Of a DNA stretch of 12,764 bases, positions 4,977-11,420 are shown piece after piece. The notes beneath the pieces were generated by a model, which saw nothing but the letters and a program-made list of their open reading frames with translations, had not been told where the DNA came from and did not search any database. The first letter of the stretch is position 1. Every line of letters starts with the position of its first letter. Origin of the DNA: Tannerella sp. (GTDB taxonomy: Bacteria; Bacteroidota; Bacteroidia; Bacteroidales; Tannerellaceae); NCBI GenBank assembly GCA_031279875.1, contig JAITHS010000002.1, positions 1-12,764 of the forward strand, given 5' to 3'. Position numbers and translations under genes: made by a program.

Positions 4977-6860
4977 TTATCGTCCCATCAAAACAAGCAA
5001 AATATTAATATCGCTTGGCGAGACGCCGGGAATACGTGCAGCTTGGGCTATTGTTTCGGGGTCTATGGCGGTGAGTTTTTGGCGGGCTTCGGTCGATAGC
5101 GATTGTATTGTCGAGTAATCAAATTTCCCCTTGATACGCAGACTATTAAGTCGCGACGACTTCTCTACAATCTGCTGTTCGCGGCGAATGTAACCCTCAT
5201 ATTTGACCGAAATCTCCGTTTCTTCTACTATTTCGGATTGCAGTTGTGGCGTCAACGGCTCCAACAACGCACGAATATTGGATAATACGCTGATTATCAG
5301 CATATTAGTAAGATTTATTTGCGGACGTTTCAGTATTTCGATAAGCTTCACGGCATGAGGTATCGGCGCCGTGCCTGACTGTTCAAGCAGCGGATTGATT
5401 TCGGCGGGAGTAACGGAAATGTTTTCCAAACAAAGCGTAATATTCTCAATAACAGACATTTTCCTCTTAAACAACTCATATCTTGCCTTATCTGCAAGTT
5501 TGATTTGAAATGATTTTTCCGTCAGACGCCTGTCGGCATTGTCCTGACGCAGCAAAATCCGGTATTCGGCGCGTGAAGTAAACATTCGATACGGCTCGTC
5601 AACGCCTTTGGTAACGAGGTCGTCAATCAGTACGCCGATGTACGCCTCGTCGCGCGAAAGCACCAGCGGTTCAACACCGGCGCTGTTGGCATGAGCGTTG
5701 ATACCCGCCATTAAACCTTGCCCCGCCGCCTCCTCATAGCCGGTAGTACCGTTTATTTGACCGGCAAAAAACAGATTCTTTATCAATTTGGTTTCCAGAG
5801 AGTTAAGCAACTGTGTCGGGTCAAAAAAATCATACTCGATAGCATATCCGGGTCGATAGAGTTGGATATTTCTAAAAGCGGGGATAGCCTGCAACGAGCG
5901 CAACTGAATATCAAACGGAAGCGACGAAGAATAGCCGTTGAGGTAGTATTCGTTAGTATTTTCGCCTTCCGGTTCGAGAAACAACTGATGACGGTCTTTG
6001 TCGGCAAAAGTAACGATTTTTGTTTCGATACTCGGACAGTAACGCGGTCCGATACTTTTAATCCGACCGTTATACAAAGGCGACTCCGACAATCCCCGAC
6101 GAAGAATGTCATGACATTCTTCGTTAGTATATAATGTAAAGCAACTCAACTGTTTAAGTTTGCTATCGACATTATCGAGAAACGAAAACTTATGAAACCC
6201 CGTATCTCCTTTTTGTTCGGTAAGATGCTCAAAATCAATGCTTTTACCATCTATTCTCACCGGTGTACCCGTTTTCATGCGCGAAGATTTGAAACCGAGT
6301 TCAACCAACTGTTCCGTAAGCCCGTGTGAAGCCGGTTCGGAGATGCGCCCGCCGCTAACCTGATGCCTGCCGACATGAATCAAGCCATTCAGAAACGTAC
6401 CGTTAGTCAGAACTACCGCTTTTGCTCTAAATTCGACGCCGAGAGCAGTTTTTATGCCCGTAACCGTCTTATTATCAACGATTAATTGCGTTACATTATC
6501 CTGCCATACAAAAAGATTGGGAATAGAATCGAGTATTTCGCGCCATGCTAAAATATATTTGCTGCGGTCGTTTTGAGTGCGCGGGCTCCACATCGCCGGT
6601 CCTTTGCTGATATTCAACATTCTGAACTGTATAGCAGTACTATCGGCAACAATACCCATATACCCACCCAGAGCATCGATTTCGCGAACAATCTGACCTT
6701 TGGCTATACCGCCGACGGCAGGATTGCAACTCATCTGCGCAATTTTATTCATATCCATCGTAACGAGCAACGTTCGCGAGCCGAGATTAGCCGCTGCCGC
6801 CGCCGCCTCACATCCTGCGTGCCCCGCACCTACCACTATAACATCATAATCAAATTTCAT
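4977..6860 (-). CDS. mnmG: tRNA uridine-34 5-carboxymethylaminomethyl modification enzyme MnmG (GidA)
   Basis: With its GTPase partner MnmE, this FAD enzyme installs the 5-carboxymethylaminomethyl group on wobble uridine 34 of certain tRNAs. The 627-residue length is normal for the family. Visible features are the FAD-binding VVGAGHAG (G11, G13, G16), SCNPAVGGIAKGQ with conserved C45, SKGPAMWSPRTQNDR (~86-99), KTGTPVRID (~196), GPRYCPSIE with the second conserved cysteine C275, FFAGQINGTTGYEEAAGQG (~364-382) and the C-terminal KYEGYIRREQ tRNA-binding region. The start ATG (6858-6860) overlaps the kinase stop codon by four bases (ATGA), which suggests translational coupling to the upstream signalling operon. 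No separate promoter match was noticed in the region just upstream. mnmE is not in the window. The gene appears intact. Confidence 0.98.
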   Translation of the reverse strand: MKFDYDVIVVGAGHAGCEAAAAAANLGSRTLLVTMDMNKIAQMSCNPAVGGIAKGQIVREIDALGGYMGIVADSTAIQFRMLNISKGPAMWSPRTQNDRSKYILAWREILDSIPNLFVWQDNVTQLIVDNKTVTGIKTALGVEFRAKAVVLTNGTFLNGLIHVGRHQVSGGRISEPASHGLTEQLVELGFKSSRMKTGTPVRIDGKSIDFEHLTEQKGDTGFHKFSFLDNVDSKLKQLSCFTLYTNEECHDILRRGLSESPLYNGRIKSIGPRYCPSIETKIVTFADKDRHQLFLEPEGENTNEYYLNGYSSSLPFDIQLRSLQAIPAFRNIQLYRPGYAIEYDFFDPTQLLNSLETKLIKNLFFAGQINGTTGYEEAAGQGLMAGINAHANSAGVEPLVLSRDEAYIGVLIDDLVTKGVDEPYRMFTSRAEYRILLRQDNADRRLTEKSFQIKLADKARYELFKRKMSVIENITLCLENISVTPAEINPLLEQSGTAPIPHAVKLIEILKRPQINLTNMLIISVLSNIRALLEPLTPQLQSEIVEETEISVKYEGYIRREQQIVEKSSRLNSLRIKGKFDYSTIQSLSTEARQKLTAIDPETIAQAARIPGVSPSDINILLVLMGR

Positions 6861-8662
6861 TGTATCAAATTTTCAAAATCAACGGCAGTTTCGAGCAGTT
6901 CTCCGCTGTCGTTGTAAGTGTCGTATTTGCCGTCGGAGCGCAGAAAGGCTCTTCCACCGGAAATTCTTTCTACTTGTTTGTATTTGCACGGTATATGCAC
7001 AATGCCTTTCTCGTCGATTACGCCATACAGTTTGGTCGTTTTATCGCGAACTATGTAATATTTGCCCAGACGTAAAGAGTTACTGCGCAGTTCGTATTTG
7101 TCAAGCCTGTCGGCGATGTTTTTTTCTTCTATTTTGTCGGTACATTCTTTCATGAGATTGTGCAATTCGACGTTATTTTTTAACTCGGACGCTTTTTCCA
7201 AGTCTTTCATTGCATCGGAGTATTTACCGGCATTCATCTTCTCTTTTGCAGATATAAATAACTGATTATAAATAGAATCCGATGATGTATCGGGATTATT
7301 ATCGACAGTCGGGATACGTTCTGTCGGCGTTACCTGCGGTTTAGTAATGATGCGTTCCGGCACAACAGTAGGTTTTTCGGGCGTAACAGGCGTAACAGGC
7401 GTAACGGTAAGCGTATCAGGTTCTATTACTTCATGCCATTTAAGCGGCGAAAATGAGCGCACAGGCACATCATTAAGCGGCACATAAGTCTTTTCTTTGC
7501 CGATATAATAATAGTAAAAAGCATAGCCTGCGAAAGCGACCAACAGCAGACCGCTTATAACAAGAACCGTAACAAGCGTTGCGGAAGAGCCTTTCGAGGC
7601 GACTTTCGCCGTTTCTACCTCGCCCCCGATAACAACCGTTCCATCTTCCTTATCAAAGTCATCGGAAGCATTGGTATAAACCGTATCATCATCCCTGTCC
7701 TGCAACGAACCGGTGGAAGCTGCTGTGTCGGGCAATGTCGGCTCAGGCTCTTCAAACTCATACGGCGGAATATCAAGCGACGCAAGCATTTCTTTAACGC
7801 TTTGATACCTGTCTTCGGCTCTGACCGACATGGCTTTGAGGATTACCGCTTCCGTTTTGGGGCTTATATTCTTATTAAGCGAAGACAGCGGCGTTAAATC
7901 TTTGGTAGCGCGCAGGATTGATTCAACCGGAACGACGCCTGTCAGGATGTTATACATCGTAGCGCCGAGCGAGTAAACGTCGGGGCAAGGCGAGAAGTTT
8001 AGCGTTCCTTCGTCGTCATACTGTTCGATTGAAGCAAAGCCTTTTGAGAGGGTCAGTGTTGTAGTCGTCGTTTCCTTATTTTCGATGTCATAGCGTTTGC
8101 TGACGCCAAAATCTATCAGTCGGGCGTTATTATGCCTGTCAATGAGAATGTTACCGGGCTTTATATCTAAGTGACATATATTTTTTTCATGAACGAAATC
8201 AAGGGCGTTACCTGCCTGATGAATATATCGAAAGGCTTTATTTTCGGTCATAACGCCCTTATTTTCAAGCATATGCTTCAACGAGCAGCCGTCGATATAT
8301 TCCATCACGATATATGCCGTATTGTTTTCCTCAAACACTTCGAGTACGTTGACAATATGCGGATGATGTACGTCGGAGAGGATTTTGGCTTCTTTGATAA
8401 GTTTTTCTTTAAACTTGTTGAACAGTTTTTCGCCTGTCTCCGAATGCACTTTGACGGCATAAGTAGAGTTGTCGCGATAGCAATAATCCTTGAAGAAATA
8501 CTCTTTGACACAAACCGGTACGTCGGTTCTCATGGCGCCGAGTTCACCTTTAACAATGGTGTTCCAGACGCCGAGATAAGTAATACCAAATCCACCTTGC
8601 CCTATTGTACGGGTCAGTCGGTATTTTTTGTGTTGCAAAAAGTATCCGTCAGGTAAGTTCAT
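6857..8662 (-). CDS. Membrane Ser/Thr protein kinase with TPR-like and WG-like extracytoplasmic tail
   Basis: This is a Hanks-type kinase expected to phosphorylate cytoplasmic proteins in response to an outside or envelope cue. In the 601 residues, the kinase domain is ~14-295: glycine loop GQGGFGITYLG (21-31), catalytic lysine in VCVKEY (K53), catalytic loop HLDIKPGN (D166, N171), DFG (D184), activation-segment GFASIEQYD, and DVYSLGATMYNILTG. HLD replaces HRD, so this may be a non-RD kinase. An acidic linker (~303-340) precedes one membrane helix (~361-387). Outside lie a Thr/Pro-rich stalk with TPVTPVTP (~418-447), a helical TPR-like segment (~465-515) and a WG-repeat-like segment (LYGVIDEKGIVHIPCKY, ~545-561). 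There are no PASTA repeats. It starts three bases after the PP2C stop and overlaps mnmG by four bases. Kinase assignment is firm; the signal sensed is unknown. Confidence 0.95.
   Translation of the reverse strand: MNLPDGYFLQHKKYRLTRTIGQGGFGITYLGVWNTIVKGELGAMRTDVPVCVKEYFFKDYCYRDNSTYAVKVHSETGEKLFNKFKEKLIKEAKILSDVHHPHIVNVLEVFEENNTAYIVMEYIDGCSLKHMLENKGVMTENKAFRYIHQAGNALDFVHEKNICHLDIKPGNILIDRHNNARLIDFGVSKRYDIENKETTTTTLTLSKGFASIEQYDDEGTLNFSPCPDVYSLGATMYNILTGVVPVESILRATKDLTPLSSLNKNISPKTEAVILKAMSVRAEDRYQSVKEMLASLDIPPYEFEEPEPTLPDTAASTGSLQDRDDDTVYTNASDDFDKEDGTVVIGGEVETAKVASKGSSATLVTVLVISGLLLVAFAGYAFYYYYIGKEKTYVPLNDVPVRSFSPLKWHEVIEPDTLTVTPVTPVTPEKPTVVPERIITKPQVTPTERIPTVDNNPDTSSDSIYNQLFISAKEKMNAGKYSDAMKDLEKASELKNNVELHNLMKECTDKIEEKNIADRLDKYELRSNSLRLGKYYIVRDKTTKLYGVIDEKGIVHIPCKYKQVERISGGRAFLRSDGKYDTYNDSGELLETAVDFENLIQ
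7381..7407. repeat. Three-copy 9-bp in-frame repeat in the kinase stalk
   Basis: On the plus strand GCGTAACAG occurs at 7381-7389 and 7390-7398, with GCGTAACGG at 7399-7407. Read on the minus strand it encodes the TPV units of the Thr/Pro-rich stalk that follows the kinase membrane helix. Changes in copy number would lengthen or shorten the stalk without shifting the frame. Confidence 0.8.
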
Positions 8663-8665
8663 ATT

Positions 8666-9430
8666 TTAGTTCTTTTTGTGTGTTTTCTGCACCGGCAGGA
8701 TGTAGAACGAAAAGTTGTCTTTCGCCTCATTAATACAGCGTTCTACGATTGTATCCTTAATATTTTCGGCATTACGGGCGGTAGCAAAAAGCAGGCACAG
8801 GTCGTTGTCGGAAAACTGTTCCGTAACGCCGTCGGTACACATCAGAAACCGGTCGCCCGGACGTATATCGGTAATCAGTTTGACGTCGGCTTCTACCGGC
8901 ATTGCTGTGCCTGTAATGGCTCTCGTTATAACGTTTCGTTGGGGATGGTGGGCTGCTTCTTCGGGCTTGATAATGCCTAACCTGACCCATGAATTGACAA
9001 GGCTATGGTCTTCTGTTTTGTTGATTATCAATCCTTTACGAAAATGATATATCCTGCTGTCTCCGATATGTGCTATGGTGATGCCGTTGGCACCGTTGTA
9101 GAGCATTGTCAGAGTTGTAGCCATGCCTTGTGCGGCAGGGTTTTGGGATATGTACTCGTCGAAGCGCGCTTCGGCATACCTGACGGCCTTGTTGACAAAT
9201 TCTTCCGTAGGGTTATCGTGTTCAAGAAAGGTGTCAAAAAAGGTATTCAGGCACTCGCAGGCTAATGATGAGGCTACTTCGCCTTTGCTGGCGCCTCCTA
9301 CTCCGTCGCATACGAGAAAAATTTTCTGCCCCGCACTCGCCAACTCGGATACGGGGTAGATACAGTCTTCGTTATTTTTGCGTTTGCCTTTATCTGTGGC
9401 GGCAAACGGTCTATCAAGCGTTATTGTCAT
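8666..9430 (-). CDS. PP2C-family (PPM) Ser/Thr protein phosphatase
   Basis: This is a cytoplasmic metal-dependent phosphatase that should reverse phosphorylation by the adjacent kinase. The 254-residue product is one PP2C domain of bacterial size. Seen in order are GKRKNNEDC (E21, D22), CDGVGGASKGEVAS with metal ligands D42 and G43, the AQGMATTLTML helix (~100-110), AHIGDSRIYHF (~120-130), EDHSLVNSWVRLG (~140-152), RNVITRAITG (~165-174), LMCTDGVTEQFSD with D200, and the final metal Asp in AKDNFSFYI (D238). All usual metal-binding positions are present, so it should be active. There is no signal peptide or membrane helix. Its start overlaps the preceding zinc ribbon-FHA gene by four bases (ATGA), and the kinase follows after three bases. 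PP2C plus kinase pairs are a standard bacterial arrangement. Confidence 0.95.
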   Translation of the reverse strand: MTITLDRPFAATDKGKRKNNEDCIYPVSELASAGQKIFLVCDGVGGASKGEVASSLACECLNTFFDTFLEHDNPTEEFVNKAVRYAEARFDEYISQNPAAQGMATTLTMLYNGANGITIAHIGDSRIYHFRKGLIINKTEDHSLVNSWVRLGIIKPEEAAHHPQRNVITRAITGTAMPVEADVKLITDIRPGDRFLMCTDGVTEQFSDNDLCLLFATARNAENIKDTIVERCINEAKDNFSFYILPVQKTHKKN

Positions 9431-9969
9431 GGTTTGTCTGTTTTATCATTAAAGCGAATTTGAGTGTGGCCGAGTGTGATTTCGTCATCGTTTTGCAGCA
9501 CTATTATGTCGCCTGTTTCCAAACTTTTTCCATTATATAACGTGTTATTTTTGCTGTTATTGTCTGACAGGCAATAAAAAAATCCCTTGCCTTTGGGTTT
9601 TTTCTTTACTTCGATACGGATATGGTTACGGCTCATCGTTTTGTCGGATGTTTTAACACAGAAATCGGCTACCGACACTTTTGCTTCGCGACCGACCGTA
9701 AATATCCCTTCTTTGATTTGAAAAACCTGATGAGCAGTATCGGCGTCGGGCAAGACGGTCAACGTTCCGACGGTGTTGTCGCCGGACGTTGAACTCGCCC
9801 CGAAGACGAGTATTGTCTCGCCTTCCTGCTCTTCGCTGATGTTGTCAAGATACGTTAAAGGAATGTCTTTTTTGCATTTAGGACATTTAAACGTAACAAT
9901 ACCTTCCGGGATACGACTCTCGTCAACTTTGAGTCCTATCTTACAATGAGGGCACTTGACTGCAATCAT
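9427..9969 (-). CDS. Zinc ribbon-FHA domain protein
   Basis: This is a predicted cytoplasmic adaptor that binds phosphothreonine. The first ~35 residues form an MJ0042-like zinc ribbon with two CxxC knuckles (C6/C9 in CPHC, C29/C32 in CPKC). A low-complexity linker follows, then an FHA domain at ~85-175. Key FHA positions are present: the GR pair (G93, R94), SRNH (S113, H116) and the Asn-rich loop DNNSKNNTLYNG (N141). The domain therefore looks competent to bind phosphopeptides. The linker contains several Thr and Ser that could be kinase targets (inference). The start ATG overlaps the end of the upstream acidic gene, and the stop overlaps the PP2C start, each by four bases. Its partner is unknown; the kinase and the acidic protein are obvious candidates. 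Confidence 0.9.
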   Translation of the reverse strand: MIAVKCPHCKIGLKVDESRIPEGIVTFKCPKCKKDIPLTYLDNISEEQEGETILVFGASSTSGDNTVGTLTVLPDADTAHQVFQIKEGIFTVGREAKVSVADFCVKTSDKTMSRNHIRIEVKKKPKGKGFFYCLSDNNSKNNTLYNGKSLETGDIIVLQNDDEITLGHTQIRFNDKTDKP

Positions 9970-10199
9970 AATATGATTGAAACATCTGCCTCGCTTATGT
10001 CTGACATATAAGCATCGATATCGGTGTCGTTAAACATGCCGTCATCTACCGTAATGTAGTCAACGTCTAACGAGCAGGAGTTATCGACTTGAACAAACTC
10101 AATATCATTAACTTCCTGACTGTCAATATCAACGAACAGCGCATCGCCTGTTGTCAGCATATCGTTATCTAACGTAACGAATGTATAACCATCTTTCAT
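9966..10199 (-). CDS. Small, strongly acidic repeat protein of unknown function
   Basis: I do not recognise a family. The 77-residue product has 17 Asp and 3 Glu against a single Lys and no Arg or His, so its net charge is near -19. It contains four related segments: FVTLDND (7-13), FVDIDSQ (22-28), FVQVDNS (35-41) and YITVDDG (48-54), i.e. [FY][VI]x[LIV]D at intervals of 15, 13 and 13 residues. It has no signal peptide or membrane helix and only one Cys. Three of its six Thr (T16, T50, T59) have Asp at +3, a context favoured by some FHA domains. It is believed real because its stop overlaps the next gene's start (ATGA), the repeat is preserved at protein level, and a TAnnTTTG box lies 29 bases before its start. 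A phosphorylated FHA ligand, an inhibitor or a metal-binding protein are all possible. Confidence 0.75.
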   Translation of the reverse strand: MKDGYTFVTLDNDMLTTGDALFVDIDSQEVNDIEFVQVDNSCSLDVDYITVDDGMFNDTDIDAYMSDISEADVSIIL

Positions 10200-10228: not shown

Positions 10229-10236
10229 CAAAATTA
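10229..10236 (-). promoter_or_regulatory. Putative internal promoter box before the acidic gene
   Basis: The minus strand reads TAATTTTG, an exact match to TAnnTTTG, 29 bases before the start codon at 10199. No clear TTG lies 19-21 bases upstream. It sits in the only sizeable gap (10200-10325) of the signalling block, so the last five genes may have their own transcription start. The match is seen; activity is inferred. Confidence 0.5.
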
Positions 10237-10325
10237 GGTGTTTTTTGCGAGGCAGCATCATTTAAATGTGTTTTTTTTTCGTCCGCCAAACAAAAGGCTG
10301 AATATATTGTACAAAACATACACTT

Positions 10326-10979
10326 TTATGTACGAACCCACTTTGCTTTGCATGTTGGTGTTTGGCAAAGTTTTTTGTTTGCCAGCGATTCCCACGGTAG
10401 TTCGCCGAGAAAAACGCCGCATTTGGGGCATACGTAGTCGATTTTGAATTTGTTGGCGAGGCGTTGCAGCTGTGCCGGTATTTTGGCTGCTTGCCTTGCG
10501 CCTAAGTAGATGCCTAATGTTGGGGCGCAAACGGCTACTACAAAGCTGATTACGAACAGCCAGCGGTTTGTGTGTCCCATGAAGCCGAGTACTATGCCTA
10601 CCATTCCGATGACGGCAAAAGGCAGCGACTGAAACAGCCTGGTTTTGAACTGATTAGTCGATTGTACTTTGATTTTTTCTTTGATATAATTGTCGTAAAC
10701 CGGTTTGAGGGCAGCAAATTCGTCGCTGTAATCGTTTTCGTAGTGCAGTATATCCGACACGCGGACGGTGTTTTTCAAACCGAAAGAGACTGTATCATTA
10801 GGGCGTACTTTTTTGCGGATTATGCGGATATCGTTGACAAAGGTACCGTTGGTGGAGTTTTTGTCTTCGATGAAGAGGTCGCCGCCGTCGCGAACCAATA
10901 AAACGGCATGATAACGGCTCGCTTCGGGGTCGTCTATCACATAGTTATTGTCGGCAGCCTTACCTATTTTGATCTCCAT
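10326..10979 (-). CDS. FHA-domain membrane protein with C-terminal zinc ribbon
   Basis: This is a predicted inner-membrane adaptor with a cytoplasmic FHA domain. In 217 residues, the FHA domain occupies ~1-78 (SRYHA with S21 and H24; NSTNGTFVND at 41-50). A charged helical linker follows, then two membrane helices (~115-134 and ~140-160). A cytoplasmic tail carries a zinc ribbon (C184/C187 in CPKC, C205 and C210 in CQTPTC). Because there are two helices, both termini should face the cytoplasm. The usual Gly-Arg at the first FHA loop is Gly-Lys here (G6, K7), which may weaken phosphopeptide binding. The start follows the LytTR stop after nine bases. After its stop comes a 126-base gap with a promoter-like box. 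The role is unknown; tethering a phosphorylated partner to the membrane is a reasonable inference. Confidence 0.9.
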   Translation of the reverse strand: MEIKIGKAADNNYVIDDPEASRYHAVLLVRDGGDLFIEDKNSTNGTFVNDIRIIRKKVRPNDTVSFGLKNTVRVSDILHYENDYSDEFAALKPVYDNYIKEKIKVQSTNQFKTRLFQSLPFAVIGMVGIVLGFMGHTNRWLFVISFVVAVCAPTLGIYLGARQAAKIPAQLQRLANKFKIDYVCPKCGVFLGELPWESLANKKLCQTPTCKAKWVRT

Positions 10980-10988
10980 CGTTGATGT

Positions 10989-11420
10989 TTATTGTGATTT
11001 TTTTCTTTTCTTTGCCGGTTTCGTAGCGGAGTCAACGAGTTCGTCTGACGTATCGCCGCCGAGTACTTCGGCTTCAAGAGCGTCTTTAATAGTCCGTAGA
11101 GGTTCCTTTGGTATTGAAAGTTCACGTGGTTTGCCTTCTTCGGCAAGCAGCAGCAGTTTTTGTTTGGGTACGTTGATTTGCAAAATGTGCATCTTGTTTA
11201 CGATATGGCTTTTGCCGACACGGATGAGTATCGTATTGCGTTCGCTGAGTTGTAATTCGAGCATTTCTTCTATCTTGCCGAGGTTTACGGCAAAAGTAAA
11301 CTGTATCCCTTGCGCCAGCAAAAGACGGGTGTAGTTTCTGTCGGCTTCAAAGTACAGAATATTCTCAATATTAATACGTAACAATTCGTCACGTGTTTTT
11401 ATCATCAGATAATTGTTCAT
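10989..11420 (-). CDS. Stand-alone LytTR DNA-binding domain protein
   Basis: This is a likely transcription regulator. LytTR domains bind DNA through a beta-rich fold and are usually attached to a receiver domain; here the domain stands alone. The ~100-residue LytTR core shows LLRINIENILYFEADRNYTRLLL (from ~13, stated in parts: INIENILYFEAD and NYTRLLL) and the signature LIRVGKSHIVN (~65-75). A lysine-rich tail (TKPAKKRKKSQ) ends the 143 residues. There is no phospho-acceptor receiver, so control may come through phosphorylation by the operon's kinase or simply through expression level (inference). It is the first gene of the signalling block and has the best promoter match in the window just upstream. 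Autoregulation is plausible but no LytTR direct repeats were identified with confidence. Confidence 0.88.
   Translation of the reverse strand: MNNYLMIKTRDELLRINIENILYFEADRNYTRLLLAQGIQFTFAVNLGKIEEMLELQLSERNTILIRVGKSHIVNKMHILQINVPKQKLLLLAEEGKPRELSIPKEPLRTIKDALEAEVLGGDTSDELVDSATKPAKKRKKSQ

Follow-up and report, generated by a model that had tools for sequence, protein, structure and literature searches.

The window, i.e., the whole stretch of 12,764 nucleotides of Tannerella sp. DNA that we analyzed, carries the following genes on its minus strand, listed from the regulator onward:

10989..11420, minus strand: LytTR, a stand-alone LytTR DNA-binding protein of 143 aa (LytTR match E 2e-8)
10326..10979, minus strand: FHAzn, with an N-terminal FHA domain (E 3e-17) and a Cys-rich end (CPKC ... 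CQTPTC, read by eye)
9966..10199, minus strand: ACID, a 77-aa acidic protein of a conserved family, with relatives under purifying selection and a fixed position
9427..9969, minus strand: ZnFHA, a zinc ribbon plus FHA domain, 180 aa (Pfam FHA E 3e-12)
8666..9430, minus strand: PP2C, a Ser/Thr phosphatase of 254 aa (PP2C_2 E 7e-16)
6857..8662, minus strand: STK, a Hanks-type kinase of 601 aa (Pkinase E 2e-41)

Pfam found no receiver in the LytTR protein, which matched LytTR only, besides a sub-threshold DUF739. FHAzn has two TM-like stretches, near residues 115 and 141 (hydropathy 2.0 and 2.3), and is predicted to be a membrane protein; its FHA motif, which usually reads GR at that place, reads GK in the window and in a relative from genome G400. 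In ZnFHA, the Zn_ribbon_4 match (E 4e-6) was below the family cut-off, yet the four ribbon Cys and the FHA residues R94, S113, H116, and N141, which we take to be those that bind phosphothreonine, were invariant in all 10 aligned sequences, and thus the FHA core is intact. STK contains one TM-like stretch near residue 361 (hydropathy 2.39) and a WG-like end below the Pfam cut-off. PADLOC, which covers known anti-phage defence, gave no match for ACID, ZnFHA, FHAzn, or LytTR, while STK matched 35 of its families (best mad6, E 2e-57) and PP2C matched one (PDC-M21C, E 7e-11), all of which could reflect shared catalytic domains. Elsewhere in the window, an open-ended frame at 1-2733 resembles by eye a hybrid two-component sensor, with a propeller, a kinase, a receiver, and an AraC end, and the kinase gene shares 4 bases (6857-6860) with the next gene, which is mnmG-like by eye. 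A literature search, mostly of open-access papers, listed none on this cluster.

ACID runs from ATG to TGA and is a real gene. A previous sequence-only reading had described it as a highly acidic repeat protein of no known family, and most of that description proved exact. The protein contains 17 Asp and 3 Glu (20 acidic residues), one Lys, and no Arg or His, giving a net charge of -19, and four [FY][VI]x[LIV]D segments begin at residues 7, 22, 35, and 48. At least three copies of this pattern occurred in none of 20,000 shuffles of the protein's own residues, so the four segments are above chance. The 4-base overlap with ZnFHA was also confirmed. Pfam, NCBIfam, and PADLOC gave no match above their cut-offs, the PDB had nothing at E ≤ 1, and two further hits, Scytalone_dh (E 0.09) and PHROG phrog_9458 (E 0.057), are at chance level.

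Searching about 5.8 billion proteins with the ACID sequence alone retrieved 76 relatives in addition to the protein itself, every one at E < 1e-9, and a 19-sequence profile (A1) raised this to 886 matches, the best 120 of which were without a name or "hypothetical." One listed match, protein P0116 from a 565-base contig, carries Pfam PF12641 and PF00258; a 148-aa sequence that is probably P0116 has a flavodoxin-like start by eye, and this is perhaps a fused or chimeric frame. Within Tannerellaceae, the profile matched in 102 of 123 genomes and in 56 of the 61 better ones. Three genomes with a ZnFHA orthologue but no profile match (G097, G104, and G111) encode a divergent acidic ORF in the corresponding position, likewise sharing 4 bases with ZnFHA, and are therefore profile misses that carry ACID. 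In total, 58 of the 61 better genomes carried ACID, and all 58 carried an orthologous ZnFHA (partial in G024); the three without ACID (G061, G071, and G122) also lacked a ZnFHA orthologue and had only a distant paralogue. Carriers (41 loci) include Parabacteroides distasonis, goldsteinii, gordonii, massiliensis, and faecis as well as Tannerella sp. metagenome assemblies. ACID is thus an unannotated family across Tannerellaceae. In the order as a whole, A1 matched 5 of 393 genomes, all of the same family, and a second profile (A2) matched 1 of 345 genomes in the phylum, namely the window itself. The single case outside the family, in G400, is a 97-aa version with 27 acidic and no basic residues (E 5e-4 among the ORFs of two scanned loci; E 0.0168 genome-wide with A2). 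Since it was missed by A1 and matched only weakly by A2, remote members may be missed elsewhere.

The lack of any database family could be taken to mean that ACID is a spurious ORF in a spacer. We give this virtually no chance, because it is refuted by the hundreds of homologues and a dN/dS of about 0.15. The median NG86 dN/dS among relatives was 0.149 over 173 pairs (0.1 < dS < 1.5) that are not independent of one another, with a maximum of 0.64, so that the value near 1 which the sequence-only reading had named as a refutation was not seen. The four in-range pairs of the window's own ACID gave 0.38-0.39 at dS 1.43-1.50, and five others shown were saturated; these pairs say little on selection, and the case for purifying selection rests on the relatives.

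Across 60 distinct ACID genes, F7, V8, D11, D62, and D72 were invariant. The F of segment 1 was fixed and segment 4 had F or Y in 59 of 60, while segments 2 and 3 kept a looser hydrophobic-[VI]-x-hydrophobic-D pattern only. Acidic residues made up 29.7 per cent on average (minimum 25), and basic residues averaged 0.9 and never exceeded 3. Among 217 sequences, which form a set biased to the best-scoring matches, position 9 was Thr in 211, Ser in 5, and Val in 1; the pattern had missed two of the Thr, which were identified by eye. T50 was Thr in 170 of 217, usually with Asp at +3 by eye, and T6 was Thr in 56 of 60. A further TxxD, at T16 (TTGD), was found in the Tannerella group only and was not used. 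In 214 of 217 sequences, the C-terminus fitted the loose hydrophobic pattern D[IVLAF]x[IVFM][IMLTVF], with no more than one further residue behind it, although part of this conservation may be indirect, because the overlap with ZnFHA constrains the last ACID codon.

The earlier statement that the segments lack the DxDxDG calcium loop holds for ACID in the window and fails for the family as a whole, since 2 of 217 relatives have the loop and DxDG occurs somewhere in 97 of 217. This bears on whether ACID belongs to the calcium-binding repeats (EF-hand or FG-GAP-like), as a degenerate, shortened relative of long DxDxDG proteins that senses Ca2+ or another metal. Such long acidic proteins lie in Bacteroidales kinase clusters. 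In loci L105 and L107, their genes immediately precede those of a zinc-ribbon FHA paralogue and PP2C, i.e., at the same gene position as ACID; in L114, there is no adjacency to the FHA gene. Unlike ACID, those in L105 and L107 are 349 and 324 aa long and carry an extra SFAEAFA...GGVFEWHG domain. We scored the 8,000 best candidates, obtained 471 relatives, and used the best 120 of the 471; the ACID profile against these 120 scored 30.2 over 23 columns, whereas none of 60 column-permuted controls scored above 22.3. This local profile similarity indicates a possible homology only, as the hhalign probability was 41 per cent (7.7 with a four-sequence profile) and the matching unit is a common motif that could be convergent. 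With the full loop in so few relatives, we regard the calcium reading as improbable. As a separate observation, acidic proteins of 167-349 aa with a SFAEAFA...GGVFEWHG-like stretch are encoded at L105:5252-6301, L107:5562-6536, and L114:3944-4447 and 6706-7647, in other Bacteroidales and G071, and three of these four have DxDxDG-type repeats.

The sequence-only reading had suggested looking for homologues beside FHA, PP2C, and kinase genes; the homologues found (76, or 886 with the profile) recur there and, in related genomes, at the same place. The order LytTR-FHAzn-ACID-ZnFHA-PP2C-STK was kept in 18 of 20 larger loci, the exceptions being an insertion before PP2C in L040 and the early end of L047. 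An additional LytTR-FHAzn-like pair was seen in L036. ACID was present in 73 of 74 loci, several of which come from the same genomes, and its overlap with ZnFHA was exactly 4 bases in all 72 loci holding both, L143 ending first. Among the 102 genomes with a profile match, ACID abutted ZnFHA in 100, in 87 exactly at the ATGA overlap and in 13 up to 49 nt away, one of the matches stopping early; of the other two, G014 is cut by a contig end and G024 has only a partial ZnFHA match. A second, weak match in G054 (E 6e-4, within a frame of 695 aa) and ZnFHA rows weaker than E 2.8e-17 were left out of this count. Other junctions can break. LytTR-FHAzn lies on other contigs in G022 and also in G400, which belongs to another family and keeps the 4-bp ACID-ZnFHA overlap followed by PP2C and the kinase; an 880-aa gene separates ZnFHA from PP2C in G006 (L040:7171-9813); and in G080, G060, and G022 the kinase gene is found at another site of the genome. 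In G092, LytTR-FHAzn was present, ACID and a good ZnFHA match were not found, and kinase matches were weak. Wherever the contig allowed the test, no ACID was seen apart from ZnFHA. ACID is therefore most strictly tied to ZnFHA, and the pair persists when other neighbors part. However, G028 has a second ZnFHA copy (L097:5655-6170) without ACID, in a different kinase cluster. The idea that each zinc-ribbon FHA gene of the order is preceded by an acidic ORF was rejected; such FHA genes matched in 54 of 393 genomes, 30 loci were fetched, 24 of them paralogues (L169-L192), and an acidic ORF within 160 nt upstream was found in G460 only, L177 being cut by a contig end.

Another account of this pairing is that ACID serves ZnFHA as an assembly or solubility partner, its acidic repeats covering the basic zinc ribbon with no role in phosphorylation. 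The strict co-translation of the two proteins would fit, and so would the opposed charges, residues 1-40 of ZnFHA having a median net charge of +4 against -19 for ACID. However, the net charge of full-length ZnFHA is close to zero (median +2), and the Thr or Ser at position 9 of ACID in 216 of 217 sequences is left unexplained. We consider this account unlikely, though one that deserves weight.

Upstream of ACID, we found a promoter-like box and three imperfect repeats with a 21-bp period:

10325..10336, minus strand: repeat R1, TTCGTACATAAA, overlapping the last FHAzn codons
10304..10315, minus strand: repeat R2, TTTGTACAATAT
10283..10294, minus strand: repeat R3, TTTGTTTGGCGG, a weak copy in the window
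10229..10236, minus strand: -7-like box, TAATTTTG, matching Bacteroidetes TAnnTTTG and starting 37 nt before the ACID start

TAnnTTTG is given as the Bacteroidetes -7 consensus in a published account (PMC7366714). It occurred within 140 nt of ACID in 57 of 59 loci, compared with a mean of 6.1 and a maximum of 13 in single-base shuffles, and all but one of these boxes were 31-64 nt from ACID. A -33 TTTG at 17-23 nt spacing was seen in 6 of 59 loci only, a rarity that would fit an activator-dependent promoter. The repeat consensus is TTGGTACTTAAAA for R1 (loose), TTTGTACANTAAAC for R2 (strong), and TTTGATTATTAG for R3; some R1 conservation in the window may be coding, because R1 overlaps FHAzn codons. 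The R2 core TT[TC]GTAC[AG] was found within 250 nt upstream in 58 of 59 loci. R2 preceded the box by 67-69 nt in 41 loci and by 79-80 nt in 15, together 56 of 57 loci, which are related and hence not independent cases; these classes were set after the distances were known, and are about one helical turn apart. With a matrix built from 24 Parabacteroides-type sites, 15 Tannerella-group sites scored -13.4 to 15.5, whereas their shuffled versions averaged -53.6 with a maximum of -5.7 (n = 7,500); eight of the 15 real sites exceeded all shuffles and seven did not. In 1.35 million bases of fetched loci, duplicates included, the full matrix gave 121 matches above 10, of which 70 were placed before ACID by script, 49 were assigned to the same gap by hand from locus positions, and two lay elsewhere (L069 and L186). 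Scores at ACID were low in G080 (-2.5) and G001 (2.7), there was no match at this place in G022, and G400 scored 5.1 against a best off-target 4.8 in the loci shown. As for autoregulation, the fetched loci had no match above 10 in front of LytTR, and in the 23 loci shown no score there rose above background, in a search that could miss divergent repeats. Operators before relocated kinases were also sought and were not found in L199, L200, or L202, which argues against a wider regulon there.

According to the literature, the direct repeats of LytTR Regulatory Systems mostly follow a period of 9 bp + 12 bp = 21 bp shortly upstream of the promoter (PMC6193735), and AgrA repeats likewise lie just upstream of AgrA promoters (PMC4227749). 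The shared period makes R1-R3 a candidate LytTR operator and, together with the -7-like box and the mostly fixed distance, suggests that ACID probably heads a LytTR-controlled unit. The earlier picture of a gene inside a kinase/phosphatase/FHA operon thus stands as to its neighbors and needs amending as to its place, since ACID probably opens a transcription unit of its own.

As the first product of a unit that LytTR may control, ACID could also be a DNA mimic or acidic antagonist that binds LytTR and closes a negative feedback loop. The charge of ACID and its place directly after the repeats agree with this, and G400 and G022 still encode LytTR, so that action at a distance is possible. Nevertheless, it is to ZnFHA that ACID is tied, and LytTR-FHAzn is on other contigs in those two genomes. 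The C-terminal tail of LytTR, basic by eye in the window, was considered as a docking site for ACID and rejected, as 19 of 25 relatives shown have net negative tails. We hold this antagonist role to be a long shot.

The reading that we prefer, plausible though somewhat short of an even chance when taken as a whole, is that ACID is a genuine small cytosolic protein and a dedicated, phosphorylatable partner of ZnFHA, with which it is co-translated. LytTR, perhaps held by membrane-bound FHAzn, would switch on ACID-ZnFHA-PP2C-STK from the repeats. STK would phosphorylate Thr in the acidic segments of ACID, first T9 (FVTLD) and second T50 (DFITL), PP2C would reverse this, and the FHA domain of ZnFHA would hold or release ACID according to phosphorylation, so that ACID would carry the phosphorylation state. 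First, the fixed ACID/ZnFHA overlap, with breaks falling between other neighbors, argues for such a partnership. Second, the Thr or Ser at position 9, the C-terminal hydrophobic pattern, and the intact FHA core of ZnFHA are consistent with it. Third, the Asp usually found at +3 of T50 corresponds to an FHA preference in one yeast domain. Several points argue against it: the candidate Thr vary, T50 and T6 being incompletely conserved and position 9 being Ser in five sequences, and Ser is bound poorly by FHA domains; a Thr can be conserved in a beta strand for reasons other than phosphorylation; ZnFHA has a second copy without ACID in G028; part of the C-terminal conservation is possibly indirect; and FHAzn has GK. 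Control by LytTR is in turn opposed by the weak or absent operator in G400, G022, G080, and G001.

More speculatively, and with a low probability in our estimate, the partnership might form part of a two-layer circuit, in which FHAzn restrains the LytTR activator that drives the unit and ACID, once STK has phosphorylated it and ZnFHA has bound it, acts back on the LytTR or FHAzn step. If true, a LytTR regulatory pair would here be coupled to phosphorylation by a Hanks-type kinase, to our knowledge for the first time in any signalling system, and the messenger would belong to a new class of acidic repeat proteins. The cassette has a candidate client of its own and a specific candidate operator, so the targets of both the kinase and LytTR can be tested directly, and named strains of Parabacteroides distasonis, goldsteinii, and gordonii retain it.

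Parts of this arrangement resemble known systems. The T6SS PpkA-PppA-Fha1 threonine phosphorylation pathway combines kinase, PP2C, and FHA readout in one cluster, as the window does. Unlike that pathway, the window has a LytTR regulator and ACID instead; ZnFHA and FHAzn matched the T6SS model VI_FHA only far below the cut-off, and no T6SS family was found among the seven window proteins scanned with Pfam. In GarA/OdhI-type FHA switches, as proposed here, a small protein and an FHA domain are under kinase control, but there the FHA protein is itself the substrate, whereas ACID has no FHA domain; FHAzn matched NCBIfam OdhI at E 0.0018, below the cut-off. With the LytTR Regulatory Systems HdrRM and BrsRM of Streptococcus mutans (PMC6193735), the window shares a stand-alone LytTR protein without a receiver, an adjacent and here predicted membrane protein, and 21-bp repeats upstream of a promoter-like box, which here lie in front of ACID. 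It differs from them in that the membrane protein has an FHA domain, in that three repeat copies rather than two precede the second unit, from ACID onward, with none above background before LytTR in the loci shown, and in that a kinase, a phosphatase, and a second FHA protein follow.
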